Source: a virus. Taken from it: a stretch of DNA of 22,125 nt. The translations under genes and the position numbers were made by a program. The DNA lies in IMG/VR virus record IMGVR_UViG_3300042541_003418, positions 1-22,125 of that record; one strand, 5' to 3'. This document shows, piece after piece, positions 1 through 22,125 of the stretch. The notes under the pieces were generated by a model. That model saw nothing but the letters and a program-made list of their open reading frames with translations. It searched no databases and was not told the origin of the DNA. The first letter of the stretch is position 1. Each line of letters opens with the position of its first letter.

Positions 1-1900
1 TCCATACTTTGCTTCGCCACAAAAAGATTGGATAGACCGGAATTGATTCCGGCTGTGTGCCTTTGGGCTCAAGACTGGATGCCTCCGTCTTGCGATTTCC
101 GGTGGCCCCTCAGGTGAATGAGTTGGCACTACCGCTTCCCGATGAGTAATCTGCTAGCCGATGGTCATCGCCTATTTGCCCTGCGTGTCCTTCCACGCCG
201 CTATCCAAAAGAGTTTTTGACAGGCTAGCGCGCACTTCAGACGCGCTGGGGTTTCTTTGTGGTCTGGGGATACCCTATGCGTGCTTGGCGCGCCGTTAGG
301 AGGCGACAATAGGACTACTACGCCCTCAAACGCACACTCTCTCCCCTCCTGCTTGCCGCATTATTCCTCACGTGGTGGTCGCGACACTTCGTGCTAACTC
401 AAGGCACCCCGGATGGCAACTCCGTCCACTAAGCTAGACTGGCCTGTCAAAAGTGTGTGCGGCCCGGCCCGCACTGGGTAGCCCGATGTAGCTACGGTAG
501 AGTGATCCCGGCCTAACGGTGATGAGCCGCAGACCGGGCTATTCTCATACGACACCCGTGGCGGGGTTTCCAAAACCGCCATCGTATATTTCGCCTTTGG
601 TGGCCGGATTCGTCCTGTTGAAAGAGATTGATGGTGGGAATGCCCGCTATTACGCCAAAGGACGGTTGAGCCTTACCAGTTACGGGGTGCCCTTCCACTA
701 TCCGCGAAGAACACGATGGCCAACCTAAGGGACTGCTGCTCTCGTCATGTCTTCCCCCAGATTACCTCAGTCACAATGCCCAAACGCAATGTCGGGTTGC
801 CCGTAGGTGTAGGCGTCTCGCACTTTGGTCCATTCGTTATGGATTGCTGTCTCTAAGCACACCACATAACCACCATCAAAGATTTTTGTCAGCCGGGCGG
901 ATTGTCGAGGTCCCTCTCAGAAGTCGGAGGGCGACGGGACCGCCTAGCCTATTTAGAACGCGGCCTGATCAGGACTCCCACGCGGACTGGCATGGTGCGA
1001 AGGATCGGTCTACGGAGGCTTAGAACGCGGCATCAATGGGGAAATTCCTTGAGTAGCCCGAGGGCGAATAGCTCCCATGATCACTGGAGGAAGTTCTTTT
1101 CCTTGTAGCTCGCTGTTATTGCACCGAGCGGCGACTGACAAAAGAGGTTTGTGCGCGAGAGGCTTCGCTTCCGACGAAGAGCAAAATACTCGCCGATTCG
1201 CTATCCTCGTATGGCCATGGGAATGTTTTTGCGATCACAGAACCAGTAGCCTACACGCACAAAGTGAATTCCGAGAGGAAGGGCTAATTCTTACCGTGAG
1301 ACTAAACACGGCATATAGAATCGCAGCGCAGTCTACGCCGTCTGGGCCTATCTCGGAAAATGCACTCCCGCACCCTGTGGTGGAGGAGATAGAATCCTCT
1401 CCTACGCATGGTAGGTGGAAAGAAGTGCAGCGACCCCTTCGCCTTTGGTAGGGGGCTATCTCTCACCGCCCATCCCATTGCTGGGCGCACCCGCTGGTGT
1501 CGTTTGAATGGCGGACTGCCGTTACGCTGTTGAAAAAAGATTAGGGGTTGCGATCCACCCCAAAAGTCCCGCCTCTTTTACACCGTAAGGCGGCAACGCA
1601 ACCCGGACGCATCCGGGTCAAGAACTTGCTCATGTCCTTTTTCCTAACTCCCGTTAGGATACTCGGTTTGGTCACCCGCCATGAAAACACTGCGCGCGGG
1701 CTTTAGAAGATGTCAATAAACGTATTGAGTAGACCGACTGGTTGGTTACAGTCCCGAATCTCAAAAGTGGTTGGCGGGCTGACCCGCGCTGTGGAAGAAC
1801 GACTGGCTGGCTGAACGACTCATCTGACTACTCGCACAATCTACACTGTTTCTAACGGAGATCAAGACAAATCTGATGCGAGACTGAAGATTTTTTCTGA
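1..1900 (+). ncRNA. Putative large structured non-coding RNA region
   Basis: This stretch of nearly 2 kb has no convincing protein: its open frames are short and of low-complexity, non-protein-like composition. A search for tRNA T-loops on both strands found none that folds. It does contain long nested arms whose stems stack directly on one side: 547-552/582-587 with 559-564/576-581; 896-900/940-944 with 904-907/932-935 and 912-916/927-931; 1348-1354/1386-1392 with 1365-1368/1382-1385. Simple hairpins include 37-52, 70-92, 458-475, 1601-1618, 1642-1659 and 1774-1787. Plus strand is favoured because several stems use G-T wobbles there (414/424, 601/654, 635/646, 1509/1521), but I looked mainly in that orientation. 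By rough estimate, simple 5-6 bp hairpins occur near chance frequency; the long nested arms exceed it. Phages are known to carry giant RNAs such as GOLLD and ROOL; I cannot assign this to either. Boundaries are uncertain and the RNA may begin left of the window. No cognate promoter is seen inside it. Confidence 0.45.
953..1031 (+). repeat. 12-base direct repeat TTAGAACGCGGC
   Basis: TTAGAACGCGGC is present twice, at 953-964 and 1020-1031, 67 bases apart inside the non-coding region. The flanks differ, so this is not a simple tandem duplication. In a structured RNA, such repeated single-strand-to-stem junctions can be a recurring tertiary module; that is only a suggestion. Confidence 0.5.
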
Positions 1901-3863: not shown

Positions 3864-4325
3864 TTACTTGGGTGGGTTGAGAGACAGAAGAAAATTGCGC
3901 ACGGCCTGCCACTCGGGATTTTGATAGGCAGAGTCCACATAGATGCGAAGCGCGCCGGGGTCATGGCGACGAGAATTGGAATTGATGAACTGTTGGGCAG
4001 CAATCTCCGTGAAGAATGGCTGGACGGTTTCCCAGCGATCTACATAGCCGGTTTTGAGGTAATCTGAGAACTCCTCATCCTCTTCCTTTGAAAGATAGCC
4101 CTTAACATCCAGCTGCTCCAGCCGCTCAATCTGCGCGGGGTCTGTGACTTCCTCTCCGTCATTAGTGCTGTTTACCCAGATGCAGTTGTCACAAAAATCC
4201 ATGTCCATGCCGTCCTGTCGGACCTTCTTTTGGACTAGGAAGATGGGAAATGAGGTCATCCGGTTATCCTGAGTCGCAAGACTAGCGGCGATATCGATTA
4301 GGGCTTGAGGGATTTCTGTGGTCAT
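3864..4325 (-). CDS. Hypothetical phage protein, about 153 residues
   Basis: No family is recognised. The N-terminal part has a Cys pair (FCDNCIWVN, about residues 43-51) inside a beta-rich stretch. A helical, acidic middle follows (about 75-100), then a segment with IYVDSAYQNPEWQAVRNFL near the C terminus. I chose the second ATG at 4325 because the promoter's -10 hexamer covers the first ATG (4334) and leaves exactly 7 bases to the second. If translation uses the first ATG, the protein gains only Met-Ala-Val. No Shine-Dalgarno sequence is seen for either. It opens the transcription unit of small genes ending at the terminator. Confidence 0.7.
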   Translation of the reverse strand: MTTEIPQALIDIAASLATQDNRMTSFPIFLVQKKVRQDGMDMDFCDNCIWVNSTNDGEEVTDPAQIERLEQLDVKGYLSKEEDEEFSDYLKTGYVDRWETVQPFFTEIAAQQFINSNSRRHDPGALRIYVDSAYQNPEWQAVRNFLLSLNPPK

Positions 4326-4373: not shown

Positions 4374-7040
4374 TCAAGCGGCTGGCGCGCTGGACATTGC
4401 GGCGGGTGTTTCGGCTAGACCTGTCTCGGTCTTCTCCCCAGCCTCTTTAAGCTCAGACAGCTTCATGTAGATCTTGGCCGTCTGAACGCCGATTTCCTGA
4501 GCGAATATGCATGAGCCTTCCTTCTTGACGCCCTTGACAATCACCATATCCATCTCCTCCGGCAATCGCCCATTTGCCACAAAGATCTGATCAATGGTTT
4601 TGTTGAAGAAGCGGATGGAGATTTCCCCTGTTTCATCCGTGAGGGTGAATCGGAACATGTCATTCCCAGCTTTGCTCTTAGACTTGATCGGCTCTTTCAC
4701 AAACCCGATGAGACGGACCTTATCCTCCTGTTTGGCTGCCTCGGCATCAGCTACGGACATCAGGCCGTCAACCTCTTCCCCAAAGATTCCGCGCAGGGTT
4801 TCCGAGTAGGAGTAGCCGAGGATGGTGCGCTCGTAGAAGTAATTGGCCAGTCGCTCATTGCGACGATTCATCTCCCAGATCTCCTTGTACTTCAGATATT
4901 TCTTCTTGATGGTATCGAAACGGGTGGCGCGACTGAACAGCAGTTTACCCTTCTCGTCTTTGTTGTCTCTCAGATAGATAATGGCTTTAAGCACATCGTG
5001 ATTGATCTCAGGCTTGCCACTCAGAGTGATACAGATAGCTTTTTCCTTGTCAGTCAGTAGATTCCACGTGCATAGCTCAAGCACCAGCCGCGAGCGCGAC
5101 TCGCCATATCCCTCGATACAGCCCGCCTGAATCAAGGCGGAGCCAATGCCGATATTGAGCCCGGCGTTTTTGATAGCTTGGAAAATCTGAAATTTCGACA
5201 CAGTCTTTTTGAAGTCATCGCCACTCTTCACCACGTCTATGCGAAATGCGTCCAGCTTGCTCACAGACTTGTCGGATACCCCGCGAATCATGCTGAGGCC
5301 AAAACGAATGGATTTATCGTCTACGATGGTGAAATCGATAGAGGATTTCACTAGGTGTGGCGGCAAAAGAGTGAAGCCTCGCGAGCGCATTTCTTTTTCG
5401 ATCTGAGCGATGACCGTGTGGCCGTCCGCCTCGTTCTTAGACATGCGAAGAAGAGCCCAGTAGAACTGGATGGGGTGATTAGCCTTGAGGTAGAGGGTCC
5501 ATGCGACGATGATGGCGTAACAGGCGCTGTGAGATTTGTTGAAAGAGTAGCCGCCGGACTCTTCAGCGATTTTCAGAAGCAGGTCAACGATCTCGGGAGG
5601 ATGGCTATTCTTCTCGCACACCTCTGCAATCTTGGCCTTGACCTCGGGAACCTTGTCCACGAGTTTCTTGCCGAGGACCTTTCGCGCGCCTTCGGCCTCT
5701 TCTGCGGTCATGCCGACCTTGACCAACATGGCCAGATACTGCTCTTGAAAAAGACACACTCCGCCCGTTGGCCTTAGAATGTCATCGATCAGCGGGTGAA
5801 CCGACTTGAACTCCCCGGTCTTCAGGTAGTTGTTGTAGGTGTCCAAATAGGCAAAGGCACCCGGGCGAGCAATAGCGAGAAGCGCGCTAAGCTGTTCAAA
5901 GTTTTTCGGCGCGATCTTGGCGGCAGCATTGCCCTGCGCGAAAGTCTCCAACTGGAACACTCCATAGCGATAGCGGAAGTCCTGAAGGTAGGCGTAGATG
6001 GAGGGGTGGTGAACGTCGATCTTATCGCGGTCCAGCCCAATCAGTTTGCACGCGTCATGGACCACGTCTAGCGTGCGTAGCCCGAGGATATCCATCTTGA
6101 TGGAAATCTCTTGGGCCGAGTACATGTCGAAGCCCGTGACCAGCTCTTTGTCCGAGGACAGCTGGAGGGGCATCAGCTGATTGATCTTGCCATTCGTGAT
6201 GATAAGCGCGCTGGCGTGCTGGCCCTCGCCGCGATTCAGACCGGATAGACCCATGGAGATCTCGGCTGTTTCGGGATGAGATTCAGCCCACTCCTTGAGT
6301 CGCACATTGGCCTTATCCTCGTTATCAGACAGCGCATCTTCGATCTCTTGAGGGATGCCGAACTCGACCTCGACCAGCCCGCTCACCTCATTAGCCTGAT
6401 CCTCTGTGCCGCCCTCGAACGTCTTGAGAACGTCTTTGAGGAGGATCTTGGAGCTAAACGTGGTAGTGGTCAGCAGTTTGGAGGTCTGGCCGGGATAACG
6501 TGAATGGAGGTAGCTGAGGATTTCCGAGCGGCGGTAGAAGCTGAAGTCACAATCGATATCGGGCACCAGCCCACCGTCGATGTAGGTCACCCCGTCTATG
6601 ACCGTCTTCTTGGCGCGTGCCTTGGAGAGGAAGCGCGAAAAGAACAGGCCGTGCTCAATGGGGTCCAGATTCGTGATGCCCGTCAGATAGGACACGAGGG
6701 ATGAGCCGACAGAGCCGCGACCCGGGCCGCGCGGAATGCTGGACTCATCCGCAAAACGGCAAATGTCCCACACCATCACGATGTAGTTGGTGAAGCCGAG
6801 AAAGTCGATCATGTCCAGCTCAAACGTGACGCGCTCTCCATAGACCTTACGCTGGTCTGGCGAAAGACGCTTCAGCTTGTCCTTAAACCCGACGCGACAC
6901 AGCTGCTTGAGGAACTCAGTGTTATTGCAACCCGGCTTCGCGCCGACTGCCGCGCGCTGAGCGTCAGATATGTCAATAGAGGGCAGCACCACGCCTTGGA
7001 AAGGCAGCTTGGTTTGTGGCTGGATATTGCGGAGGATCAT
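4374..7040 (-). CDS. dnaE: DNA polymerase III alpha (DnaE-type) catalytic core
   Basis: This is the replicative polymerase core of the C family, 888 residues against about 1100-1160 for a full DnaE. Visible landmarks are PGRGS at 106-110, the palm aspartates in PDIDCDF (Asp161 and Asp163), the third catalytic Asp317 in KMDILG, the conserved ESGGYSFNKSHSACYA segment near residues 487-502, and a C-terminal OB-fold-like segment beginning at VRLIGFVKEP. The N-terminal PHP domain normally fused here is absent. The protein begins at the point where a DnaE continues after PHP (TKLPFQGVVLP), and the PHP part is a separate upstream gene. The proofreading exonuclease ends 16 bases upstream. The extreme C-terminal tau-binding region seems reduced. 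ATG is used without a clear ribosome-binding site. Confidence 0.95.
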   Translation of the reverse strand: MILRNIQPQTKLPFQGVVLPSIDISDAQRAAVGAKPGCNNTEFLKQLCRVGFKDKLKRLSPDQRKVYGERVTFELDMIDFLGFTNYIVMVWDICRFADESSIPRGPGRGSVGSSLVSYLTGITNLDPIEHGLFFSRFLSKARAKKTVIDGVTYIDGGLVPDIDCDFSFYRRSEILSYLHSRYPGQTSKLLTTTTFSSKILLKDVLKTFEGGTEDQANEVSGLVEVEFGIPQEIEDALSDNEDKANVRLKEWAESHPETAEISMGLSGLNRGEGQHASALIITNGKINQLMPLQLSSDKELVTGFDMYSAQEISIKMDILGLRTLDVVHDACKLIGLDRDKIDVHHPSIYAYLQDFRYRYGVFQLETFAQGNAAAKIAPKNFEQLSALLAIARPGAFAYLDTYNNYLKTGEFKSVHPLIDDILRPTGGVCLFQEQYLAMLVKVGMTAEEAEGARKVLGKKLVDKVPEVKAKIAEVCEKNSHPPEIVDLLLKIAEESGGYSFNKSHSACYAIIVAWTLYLKANHPIQFYWALLRMSKNEADGHTVIAQIEKEMRSRGFTLLPPHLVKSSIDFTIVDDKSIRFGLSMIRGVSDKSVSKLDAFRIDVVKSGDDFKKTVSKFQIFQAIKNAGLNIGIGSALIQAGCIEGYGESRSRLVLELCTWNLLTDKEKAICITLSGKPEINHDVLKAIIYLRDNKDEKGKLLFSRATRFDTIKKKYLKYKEIWEMNRRNERLANYFYERTILGYSYSETLRGIFGEEVDGLMSVADAEAAKQEDKVRLIGFVKEPIKSKSKAGNDMFRFTLTDETGEISIRFFNKTIDQIFVANGRLPEEMDMVIVKGVKKEGSCIFAQEIGVQTAKIYMKLSELKEAGEKTETGLAETPAAMSSAPAA

Positions 7041-10956: not shown

Positions 10957-11963
10957 TTGAATGAAAGAGTAGCTGGATCAGGATCAATGTCAAAGCAATT
11001 TGCGCCAGTCTCGGAAGATTCTTGAGAGAGGCCCTCTGGCGCGACCGGCGCGCTGGAGTCCTGCGGGCCAAAGACTCTGCGAATTTCAGAGGGGTCAGCC
11101 TCTCCCCAATCTCCACCGGATTGCGGGTGGATTACCTCGACTACATCAGGGTCGAAGAACGGAATGAGGGAGCGCCGAATCTTCTCTGCGGCCTCTTGGC
11201 CGGGTCGGCGCGTGATTCCTCCAATGACCTTGCCCTCGTCTCGATTGGTGGATATGATGATCTTGGTTGGGTTCAACGTGATGAGTTGGCCGAGGACCGT
11301 CTGGGACATGGCCGTGCCGAAGATAGCTAGGGTGTCACGGACCCCGTGTTCCCGTAGCGCCAAAAGGTCACCGGGACTCTCCACGATGATGGCGCGGCGG
11401 CTGGACTCAATGTCATCTAGCCCGCCCCAGACCCAAGTGGCTTTGGCACCCTTGATTTTCCACTTCGTCTTCTTTTCCCACTCGGTTAAACCCTCTTTTT
11501 TAAGCAATCTTCCGGTGAACCCTACGATCAGGGTCTGCTCGGGGTTGAAGATTGGGATGACGTAGCGCCCGTCGAAGAAGCCGGTGGTGGCCACGCCGCC
11601 TCGGAACTCCTCCATGGTCTCCGCCGAGATCCCTCTACCGGCCCAGTAAGAGTGATCTTTGATGAGACGATCCAATACTGATAGCGGCCATGTCTGAGCG
11701 ATTTCTAGGGGAGGCTCTTCTGCGGGCGTATACATAGTGTCTGCATCATGGCCTCCGGAGACTCCCGCGCCAGCGAGTTTCCAGATGGCCTTGCTATGCT
11801 CCGGGCTATTGTCCACAGCGCAACCATAAGCACCAGAGGAGAACAGCACGAGATGATTCCCCTTTTTATCCCCGCCTTGAGCCTGACAGGCAGGACAAGC
11901 CGATGTGGCCTTACCGCCGCCGGACGGCTTGTAGTTGATGAGTTTGGAGATGTCGAGGGGCAT
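10953..11963 (-). CDS. TOPRIM primase-like protein with zinc finger
   Basis: The 336-residue product begins with a zinc-binding module (Cys23, Cys26, Cys48 and possibly His56) of the kind used by phage and DnaG primases. A central region (about 95-185) and a TOPRIM domain follow: the catalytic Glu195 lies in IIVESPGDLLALREHG, and strands at 208-213 and 233-238 follow the fold. The usual DxDxAG motif is replaced by TNRDEG (239-244), so one metal ligand may be lost. A primase making RNA primers for lagging-strand synthesis is the best call, supported by neighbouring helicase and polymerase genes. No helicase domain is fused; the DnaB-type helicase is separate. A promoter candidate lies just upstream. 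Confidence 0.8.
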   Translation of the reverse strand: MPLDISKLINYKPSGGGKATSACPACQAQGGDKKGNHLVLFSSGAYGCAVDNSPEHSKAIWKLAGAGVSGGHDADTMYTPAEEPPLEIAQTWPLSVLDRLIKDHSYWAGRGISAETMEEFRGGVATTGFFDGRYVIPIFNPEQTLIVGFTGRLLKKEGLTEWEKKTKWKIKGAKATWVWGGLDDIESSRRAIIVESPGDLLALREHGVRDTLAIFGTAMSQTVLGQLITLNPTKIIISTNRDEGKVIGGITRRPGQEAAEKIRRSLIPFFDPDVVEVIHPQSGGDWGEADPSEIRRVFGPQDSSAPVAPEGLSQESSETGANCFDIDPDPATLSFK

Positions 11964-20293: not shown

Positions 20294-21112
20294 TTAGACA
20301 ACCTCCTCTGCTTTGACCGCCACGACCCCACGCTTAGACACGGCAATACGAGCGGCCATGCACGCGTAGTCCACGGCCTCGAAAAGCTCGCTGCCCTTGT
20401 ATTTGGCGAGGTAAAGGGCTAGTGCAGAAAGGAAGGTGTCCCCGGCTCCAGCCACGGATGAGACCTCAATGGAATCAACGGCAACCATCACATCTGGCTT
20501 GCCGTCTTTCCCTGTGATTCTCGCGCCCTTGTCTCCCAAGGTGACGATAAGGGTCCCGCAGAAATCCTGCGGTGACATGACCCCCGCCTTGATATGTTCG
20601 CCGTACTCCTTGGAGTTGATCTTCACGATGTCAATGTCCTTGGACCATTCTCCGAGGATGGCCTTCGTGTCCATGAACGTAGGAATGCCCGCCTCTTTGC
20701 AATATTCAGCGATGTTTGTGACAGTCCGATTCGGCAGAAAGCCTTTGGCATAACTGGAGATGACTACCGCGCTCCACTGTTCTGAACGCAGCTTCTGTTC
20801 CAGCCACGTTTCATCCACGGATTCCGCCACGTCATTCTCGTCTACTCTCAGGATCATCTGGCCGGACTGCGCGTCAACGTAGCGGGTTTTGATAATTGAC
20901 TTGAGCTGGCAGACTAGGTCTACGCGGTCGGCCCCAAGAGACAGGAGGTTGGCGCGGACGTTGCCCGCCATGCCGAAGTTCTCGGTGGTTTTCGCTGGGT
21001 TGAGTACAGCGACTGGGGCCTCAGGACACAGGCGAGTGGCGGACCCCAGAACCCAGCGATCATAGCAGATCTCGCCGATTACGAGGATGTTGATAGGATT
21101 GACCTCGCTCAC
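20294..21112 (-). CDS. PfkB-family sugar kinase, HldE kinase-like
   Basis: The product is a ribokinase-fold kinase of 272 residues. Its N-terminal region INILVIGEICYDRWVLG, the Gly-rich NFGMAGNVRANLLSLG (45-60) and the RYVDAQSGQMILRVDEND segment (77-94) follow the D-glycero-D-manno-heptose-7-phosphate kinase domain of HldE/RfaE. The signature GAGDTF begins at 222, with catalytic Asp225. The adenylyltransferase half of HldE is absent. It would phosphorylate a heptose phosphate or related sugar for surface polysaccharide or sugar-nucleotide synthesis. The start is GTG overlapping the dehydratase stop (GTGA), so the two act in one unit. Substrate specificity is uncertain. Confidence 0.8.
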   Translation of the reverse strand: MSEVNPINILVIGEICYDRWVLGSATRLCPEAPVAVLNPAKTTENFGMAGNVRANLLSLGADRVDLVCQLKSIIKTRYVDAQSGQMILRVDENDVAESVDETWLEQKLRSEQWSAVVISSYAKGFLPNRTVTNIAEYCKEAGIPTFMDTKAILGEWSKDIDIVKINSKEYGEHIKAGVMSPQDFCGTLIVTLGDKGARITGKDGKPDVMVAVDSIEVSSVAGAGDTFLSALALYLAKYKGSELFEAVDYACMAARIAVSKRGVVAVKAEEVV

Positions 21113-22125
21113 AGTCCGGCCTCCTTGAGGTCATTCTTGACCATGCGGGTTACCAGATCGTCAAATGAGACCTTGGGGGACCAGCCGAGTTCGGCGCGGG
21201 CGCGGGTAGAGTCTCCGAGAAGCAGCTCGACTTCGGCGGGGCGGTAAAAGGCTGGATTGATGCGGACCAGCTTTATCACGCCCTCTGGCGTATAGCCCCA
21301 GAGAGAGTGATAGGCCTCATCTGTGCCCTTGCCGCTCCAAGAGCCATCGATATTAGCCGCATAGAACGCCTTCTCCACAAACGTGCGGATGGTGTGGGTT
21401 TCGCCAGAGGCGAGGATATATTCCTGCAAATGCAAATTGGGGATGGTCCATTTCGTCGTGGGATCGATATCGTTGCGATATTCGTTCTGGTTCAGCATTC
21501 GCCAAATGCCTTCCACGAAATCCTCGGCGTGCGACCAGTCGCGCTTAGAGTCCAGATTTCCCAGTTCAATCGGGTCGAACGGCTTGTTGTCCTTCATGGC
21601 CCGCGCGATGCGCGCCACACCCAAGCTAATCTTGCGCGTGACGAACTCCTCGCCGCGACGCTCGCTCTCGTGATTGAAAAGGAGCCCCTGCACCGCATAG
21701 AGTTTATAGCTCTCACGATACACCTTGACGATCTGCCGCGCCGCAATCTTTGCCGCGCCATAAGGCGAGCGGGCTCGGGCGGGATGCTTTTCATCCTGTG
21801 GCGCATAGGCCACGTCGCCAAACTCCTCTGAAGAGCCCGCATTGTAGAATCGGCAGTCCGGCACATGCTTGCGAACGGCTTCGAGACAGCGAAGAACGCC
21901 CATGGCATCCACGTCGAAAGTCTGTTCAGGAATGGTCCACGAGGAGCCCACGAAGGACTGGGCCGCCAGATTGATGAAATAATCCGGCATAACCTCCTTG
22001 ACCACGTTGTCGATAGACGTGGAGTCGCTTAGGTCACCGGTCACCAGTTTGAACCGAGGGTTCTTCAGGGCCTCGGCCATGTTCTTGTAGTCCGGCTTGG
22101 CGGTACGGCGCACCATACCGAAGAC
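21109..22125 (-). CDS. GDP-mannose 4,6-dehydratase-like enzyme, 5' end off window
   Basis: The open frame runs to the window edge; residues before the first Met (VFG) fit VHGIVRRS of this family, so the true start and the GxxGxxG NAD-binding loop lie outside. Visible are LVTGDLSD, INLAAQSFVG, AGSSEEFG, the SDR catalytic SPYGAAK with Tyr and Lys, NHESERRGEEFVTRKI (the family's NHESPRRG motif), and RDWSHAEDFVEGIW, hallmarks of GDP-mannose 4,6-dehydratase and the related heptose dehydratases. It removes water from a GDP-hexose or GDP-heptose to give a 4-keto-6-deoxy sugar. Next to the heptose kinase it suggests a GDP-heptose pathway, though GDP-mannose is equally possible. Confidence 0.85.
   Translation of the reverse strand, partial: VFGMVRRTAKPDYKNMAEALKNPRFKLVTGDLSDSTSIDNVVKEVMPDYFINLAAQSFVGSSWTIPEQTFDVDAMGVLRCLEAVRKHVPDCRFYNAGSSEEFGDVAYAPQDEKHPARARSPYGAAKIAARQIVKVYRESYKLYAVQGLLFNHESERRGEEFVTRKISLGVARIARAMKDNKPFDPIELGNLDSKRDWSHAEDFVEGIWRMLNQNEYRNDIDPTTKWTIPNLHLQEYILASGETHTIRTFVEKAFYAANIDGSWSGKGTDEAYHSLWGYTPEGVIKLVRINPAFYRPAEVELLLGDSTRARAELGWSPKVSFDDLVTRMVKNDLKEAGL

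Follow-up and report, generated by a model that had tools for sequence, protein, structure and literature searches.

The GTPase-associated center (GAC) of 23S rRNA (Escherichia coli positions 1051-1108, helices 42-44) is the docking site of protein L11 and of elongation factors, and both the activation of RelA and the function of EF-G and EF-Tu require the L11-GAC region. Mimicry of rRNA is established in the leaders of ribosomal protein operons, and the GOLLD and ROOL RNAs often lie near tRNAs. GOLLD and ROOL are characterized in one report as noncoding RNAs of phages (PMC12286853). Our analysis of a viral record of 22,125 nt (IMGVR_UViG_3300042541_003418; its whole length is the window) points to an RNA gene of 252 nt (628-879, minus strand) that almost certainly specifies a replica of the GAC; the explanation favored as a whole, with a probability of about 0.6, is a free-standing phage RNA with this fold and a variable domain inserted in H44, together with a proposed action on host translation through L11. 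Like the ribosomal protein leaders, it puts a protein-binding site of rRNA to use away from the ribosome; unlike those leaders, which act in cis within an mRNA, it is a separate RNA, found mostly among tRNAs and carrying a changing insert. With GOLLD and ROOL it shares the character of a noncoding phage RNA often near tRNAs, but it is several times smaller and is built on an rRNA replica, and the GOLLD and ROOL covariance models had no match in the window or in the loci of 36 relatives.

The first part of the window, from the open contig end at position 1 to about 2220, has no convincing gene. An earlier note on this DNA had described 1-1900 as gene-free; that description holds, with the end moved to about 2220. 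The longest stop-to-stop run in this stretch is 132 codons, and its longest ORF has no match in Pfam or PHROG. The best-frame codon score (per codon) is 0.015, compared with 0.35 for the phage's own genes and 0.006 for shuffles; stops were treated as neutral in the scoring, so that a decayed gene would remain visible. ARAGORN found no tRNA or tmRNA in the window at standard settings and only noise at lowered thresholds, unusual and intron-bearing tRNAs included, and scans with all Rfam families (tRNA, GOLLD, ROOL, LSU, and the others) gave no match in the stretch at gathering thresholds or at E values up to 5. The same note's statements that the stretch lacks protein-like frames and tRNAs, and that any RNA there would not be recognizable as GOLLD or ROOL, are thus borne out. 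It had also named a frameshifted or decayed protein gene as one finding that would count against its own reading. Such a gene would account for the ORF-like stretches of up to 132 codons, but codon bias is absent in every frame with stops neutralized and no protein family matches, which makes this alternative barely credible.

Internal repeats in the stretch do not rise above those of shuffles, blastn against the E. coli rRNA operon found no other rRNA pieces there, and no second copy of the GAC was found elsewhere in the window. The two flanks of the RNA gene, 1-627 (downstream of it on the minus strand) and 880-2219 (upstream), together about 1.97 kb, are noncoding stretches with no codon signal and no Rfam match, and neither phage records nor the fetched loci contained a relative of them. 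A search through DnaE and DnaB found no close relatives of the phage itself.

When the stretch was compared with phage records by permissive blastn, a single short match (645-705) emerged, shared by three phages; there it falls within a tRNA-array spacer or next to a tRNA, the strand of the tRNAs corresponding to the minus strand of the window. The 5′ end of the spacer RNAs shows GGCUUAGAAGCAGCCAUC..UUUAAAGAGU and the 3′ end GGCGUAAUAGC, which are the two sides of the 23S GAC; the RNA of Pseudomonas phage UNO-G1W1, compared with E. coli by BLAST, matches the 23S genes (median of 7 places per genome). Pattern scans and BLAST yielded a family of 77 complete copies, 52 of them non-redundant. About 19 named phages carry the RNA: Pseudomonas phages pf16, UNO-G1W1, Astolliot, and Milchi; Aeromonas phage 4_4572; Xanthomonas phages XacN1, XaC1, and XbC2; Cronobacter phage GAP32; Pectobacterium phage CBB; Serratia phage BF; Erwinia phage Kaldavass and six pEa_SNUABM phages; and Acinetobacter phage ME3. 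XacN1, GAP32, and CBB are jumbo phages. None of the fetched carrier records annotates the element as an RNA; a few place short ORFs over it, which are probably spurious.

The exact 5′ motif of the family occurs in 70 stretches among 2.9 million viral contigs versus seven contigs from 84,980 genomes; of these seven, three are true 23S, two are phage-like by RNA type, and two are plasmid-like by gene content. No exact match to the main insert type was found in the 84,980 genomes. On plasmids the best matches, considered together rather than singly, span only the GAC part of about 44 bases and are probably 23S genes on chromids. Judged by these searches, the family is nearly absent from cellular genomes and specific to mobile elements. 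The two plasmid-like contigs belong to two deltaproteobacterial MAGs and carry the RNA upstream of a PLD-family gene (4604-4676 of locus L098 and 927-999, minus strand, of locus L101); the family may therefore reach beyond phages.

The architecture shared across the family comprises a closing helix (P1) in the place of H42, then H43, the tip of H44, and a 4-bp helix (P4) that closes an insert. In E. coli numbering the insertion site is exact: it lies between 1090 and 1091 and is followed by an extra UUUG; 51 of the 52 members retain its UUU, which 23S rRNA lacks. The sequence of P1 is fully variable, with compensatory changes in all eight of its pairs, and compensatory changes likewise affect all four pairs of P4. 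In a 12-sequence alignment (A2), 97.7% of cells are paired compared with 82.5% after shuffling (0/500 shuffles as high). A 39-sequence alignment, in which the 3′ mates were picked partly by pairing, gives the same result as A2, which was assembled from sequence motifs alone: 95.2% of cells paired against 71.0% in shuffles, and a covariation score of 0.645 against 0.171 (again 0/500), with only 33-57% paired in controls in which the partner strand was slid. The covariation in homologs for which the earlier note had proposed to test is therefore present, in the family to which the 628-879 RNA belongs.

The resemblance to the 23S GAC extends to individual residues. The family keeps the H43 stem, the UUAGAAGCA loop, the UUUAAAGA turn, and the GCGUAAUAGC tip, and both family models (R1 and R2) score the E. 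coli 23S GAC. Counterparts of A1067 (51/52), A1088 (52/52), A1095 (48/52), and A1098 (52/52) are conserved; conservation in H43 and at the 5′ positions is inflated because one scan required that motif, outside of which positions 1095-1098 lie. The GAC reportedly contains a long-range base triple, 1072-(1092-1099), described by Conn, Gutell, and Draper in 1998. This triple is kept in 60 of 60 distinct copies, as C with C-G in 57 and, with all three bases changed at once, as U with U-A in three; conservation without exception implies that tertiary structure, beyond the helices, appears to be under selection. Unlike the 23S GAC, the family RNA is free-standing (150-400 nt), with its own closing helix, the insert at 1090/1091, and the UUUG linker. 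The UUU beside P4, kept almost universally and foreign to the 23S GAC, could alter the fold.

True pieces of 23S rRNA do exist in phage-labeled records, among them that of Paenibacillus phage Pd_22F and small unannotated records, and the window copy might be supposed to be another stray fragment, from contamination or from recent capture of host rRNA without function. The family departs from 23S rRNA, however, in a precise and shared way (the 1090/1091 insertion and the UUUG linker), and this shared derived insertion and the covariation of the closing helix refute the stray-fragment explanation, to which we give next to no weight; true 23S pieces are distinguishable. No parts of rRNA besides the GAC were detected in the family RNA, and Rfam scans found no LSU match in the window, the GAC alone being shared with 23S rRNA. 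The Pd_22F record (locus L025) contains at 2366-2440 a genuine 23S rRNA stretch, probably host contamination or a chimeric assembly.

The inserts range from 35 to 326 nt (median 142), and the 52 non-redundant ones fall into 27 blastn clusters. The largest cluster (20 members) is marked by GGCACCCCG..GGUAAGGCU and includes the window copy; a second group, to which XacN1 and GAP32 among others belong, has AGACCCUUAGAGCA or a similar sequence at its end. A constant rRNA replica joined to a changing insert is what would be expected of a docking module plus payload.

The window copy was delimited with MFE folding and with covariance model R1, trained on 12 phage RNAs that did not include it. R1 matches the minus strand in two adjacent and correctly ordered parts, 761-628 (38.0 bits, E = 2.7e-9) and 875-762 (16.9 bits, E = 2.1e-3), and the MFE structure of 618-889 independently closes the same 10-bp helix (z = -2.5 for 628-879 and -1.7 for 618-889). 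That helix is P1: its 5′ strand, TTGATGGTGG (870-879, the position of H42 in 23S rRNA), is a perfect complement, 10/10 bp, of its 3′ strand, CCACCATCAA (628-637), ahead of which stand about eight extra bases. H43 (840-864), placed by cmsearch alignments and a systematic register search, reads GGUGUGC-UUAGAGACA-GCAAUCC, with a 9-nt loop closed by UGC/GCA in the register of the family; the counterparts of A1067, C1072, and A1073 are kept, and U-A replaces G-C at 1062-1076. At the H44 insertion point the 5′ strand of P4, GGAC (828-831), pairs 4/4 with GUCC (660-663), one base being missing ahead of P4. Between these strands lies the variable domain (664-827), assigned from family insert lengths and clusters to the 1090/1091 site. 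It contains the hairpin motif GGCACCCCGUAACUGGUAAGGCUCAA (666-691), a marker of the largest insert subfamily, with 78-85% identity to pf16, UNO-G1W1, and 4_4572, 86% identity over 66 nt to locus L018, and covarying pairs 71-91 and 78-83. The UUUG linker and the H44 tip GCGUAAUAGC (23S 1091-1100), together UUUGGCGUAAUAGC, occupy 646-659 and keep the counterparts of A1095 and A1098.

The H43 loop, the UUUG and tip, the P4-closed insert, P1, and the match to a model built without the window make membership of this copy in the family firm, even though a neighboring same-strand tRNA, a usual but not a defining trait, is absent from the window. Intactness, as judged from its predicted helices and conserved residues, is likely but not certain. 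Of the copies examined this is the most diverged, and a search of IMG/VR found no close relatives of its GAC half. With the core model R2 the 5′ half scores E = 0.005 but the 3′ half no better than E = 0.36, so the copy could be degenerate. The strong divergence of the GAC half, the missing tRNAs, and the featureless surroundings would suit a decaying relic, an RNA gene (perhaps once with tRNA neighbors) losing function in a degenerate region. Against decay, P1 is perfect over 10 bp and P4 over 4/4; U-A in place of G-C at 1062-1076 is a compensatory change; the insert hairpin is intact, as are the loop counterparts of A1067, C1072, and A1095; and junk is purged fast from lytic phage genomes. 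We regard a relic as unlikely, though it deserves to be kept in mind, and prefer a functional GAC-replica RNA.

The earlier note had interpreted the entire stretch as one large ornate RNA rich in multi-helix arms, and had proposed comparing its folding energy with that of shuffled controls. No excess was found. In 200-nt windows the mean z is -0.03 on the plus strand and -0.35 on the minus strand, with coding controls alike; 750-nt pieces of the minus strand give z of -0.8 to -1.3, and pieces of E. coli 16S and 23S rRNA of the same length, which scarcely exceed shuffles either, give only -0.7 to -2.5, so that the folding-energy test has low power in both directions. Inverted repeats in the stretch show no excess over shuffles. 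Some of the arms are real, above all the perfect 10-bp helix, but neither z nor the inverted repeats confirm an excess across the whole stretch; likewise a structured, unrecognized RNA is present, as covariation in homologs attests, but the proven part is the 252 nt of 628-879 on the minus strand and not a giant of about 2 kb.

We consider it improbable that the entire stretch of about 2.2 kb, or something longer, forms a single giant RNA with the GAC replica among its domains. The lack of codon signal over 2.2 kb would be in keeping with it, as would contig L006, where several GAC modules lie in an ORF-free stretch of about 2 kb, and normal folding energy is compatible with it because pieces of real rRNA show weak z as well. 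On the other hand, the flanks have no homolog in phage records or fetched loci, folding energy in the stretch is not in excess, and the GAC-replica RNA has a perfect closing helix of its own and, in other phages, stands alone between tRNAs. In several relatives, too, long ORF-free sequence surrounds the RNA; most of these spans bear tRNAs, L006 and L074 being exceptions. Beyond the gene-free stretch, strong local folding occurs at 2701-2900 of the window (z = -5.1 minus, -2.9 plus), inside a 133-aa ORF (2530-2931).

In the family as a whole, a tRNA lies within 1 kb of 58 of 82 copies, and all 58 share the strand of their nearest tRNA; the contigs are partly redundant, and these figures are counts rather than independent events. 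Sequence comparison and covariation establish how the RNA folds, where exactly the insert lies, how broad the family is, and that its members usually neighbor tRNAs in the same orientation. A rival idea is that of a cis-acting leader, in which L11 would bind the mimic within an mRNA and control a downstream gene. Leaders of ribosomal proteins provide an established precedent for rRNA mimicry, and in the MAG contigs L098 and L101 a PLD-family gene follows the RNA; yet the downstream gene is not conserved (mostly tRNAs or unrelated ORFs come next), and in the window the RNA sits downstream of the gene row. We therefore rate a cis-regulatory role as quite improbable compared with a separate, trans-acting GAC-replica RNA.

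As a trans-acting element, the GAC-replica RNA would be transcribed and processed alongside the translation-related RNAs that large phages encode. It would then bind host L11, and perhaps other GAC contacts such as EF-G, EF-Tu-tRNA, or RelA; binding of L11 in the cell, suggested by the conserved fold, is somewhat favored. As a decoy the RNA would compete with the ribosome; as an adaptor it would use L11 as a handle by which the variable domain is brought to a target. That its use is one of these two rather than another is plausible, but at slightly less than even odds. The outcome would be a retuning of host translation or of the stringent response during infection; because RelA, EF-G, and EF-Tu need the L11-GAC region, the stringent response and elongation are natural targets. 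More tentatively still, these modular phage RNAs may use a counterfeit GTPase center to dock L11 or a GAC-binding factor and so position diverse payload domains on the host translation machinery.

The GAC-replica RNAs apparently constitute a large, undescribed phage RNA family. Rfam 15 scans of 36 loci returned only tRNAs, one tmRNA, and one group I intron, with no match to the RNA itself. No description of a phage GAC mimic was found in full-text searches of the open-access literature, so priority is likely rather than certain, and the articles reporting the XacN1 and CBB genomes make no mention of one. To our knowledge, no trans-acting phage RNA that counterfeits a functional rRNA domain has been described. 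The RNA is widespread, occurs in well-studied jumbo phages (GAP32, CBB, and XacN1), and offers a concrete handle on the role of the translation-gene arrays of large phages; the GAC with its insert at 1090/1091 is also a natural scaffold design of interest to RNA biologists.

Several loci have unusual arrangements. Pseudomonas phage Astolliot (locus L022) has tandem GAC-replica RNAs with different insert types (2150-2495 and 2487-2686), the first of which has U1072 with U1092-A1099, by eye. In locus L066 a phage tmRNA (11048-11373) adjoins the RNA (about 11380-11570, minus strand), and a group I intron lies at 1354-1608. Locus L006 has three GAC modules (2698-2899, 3885-3942, and 4758-5060), of the middle one of which only a 5′ half was found. 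An ORF of 234 aa follows it at 3966; its weak match to a C2H2 zinc finger would suit a homing endonuclease that has possibly inserted itself into the RNA. At the far end of the window, a GDP-mannose 4,6-dehydratase (21109-22125) and a PfkB-type sugar kinase (20294-21112) possibly represent a sugar-nucleotide pathway beside replication genes.
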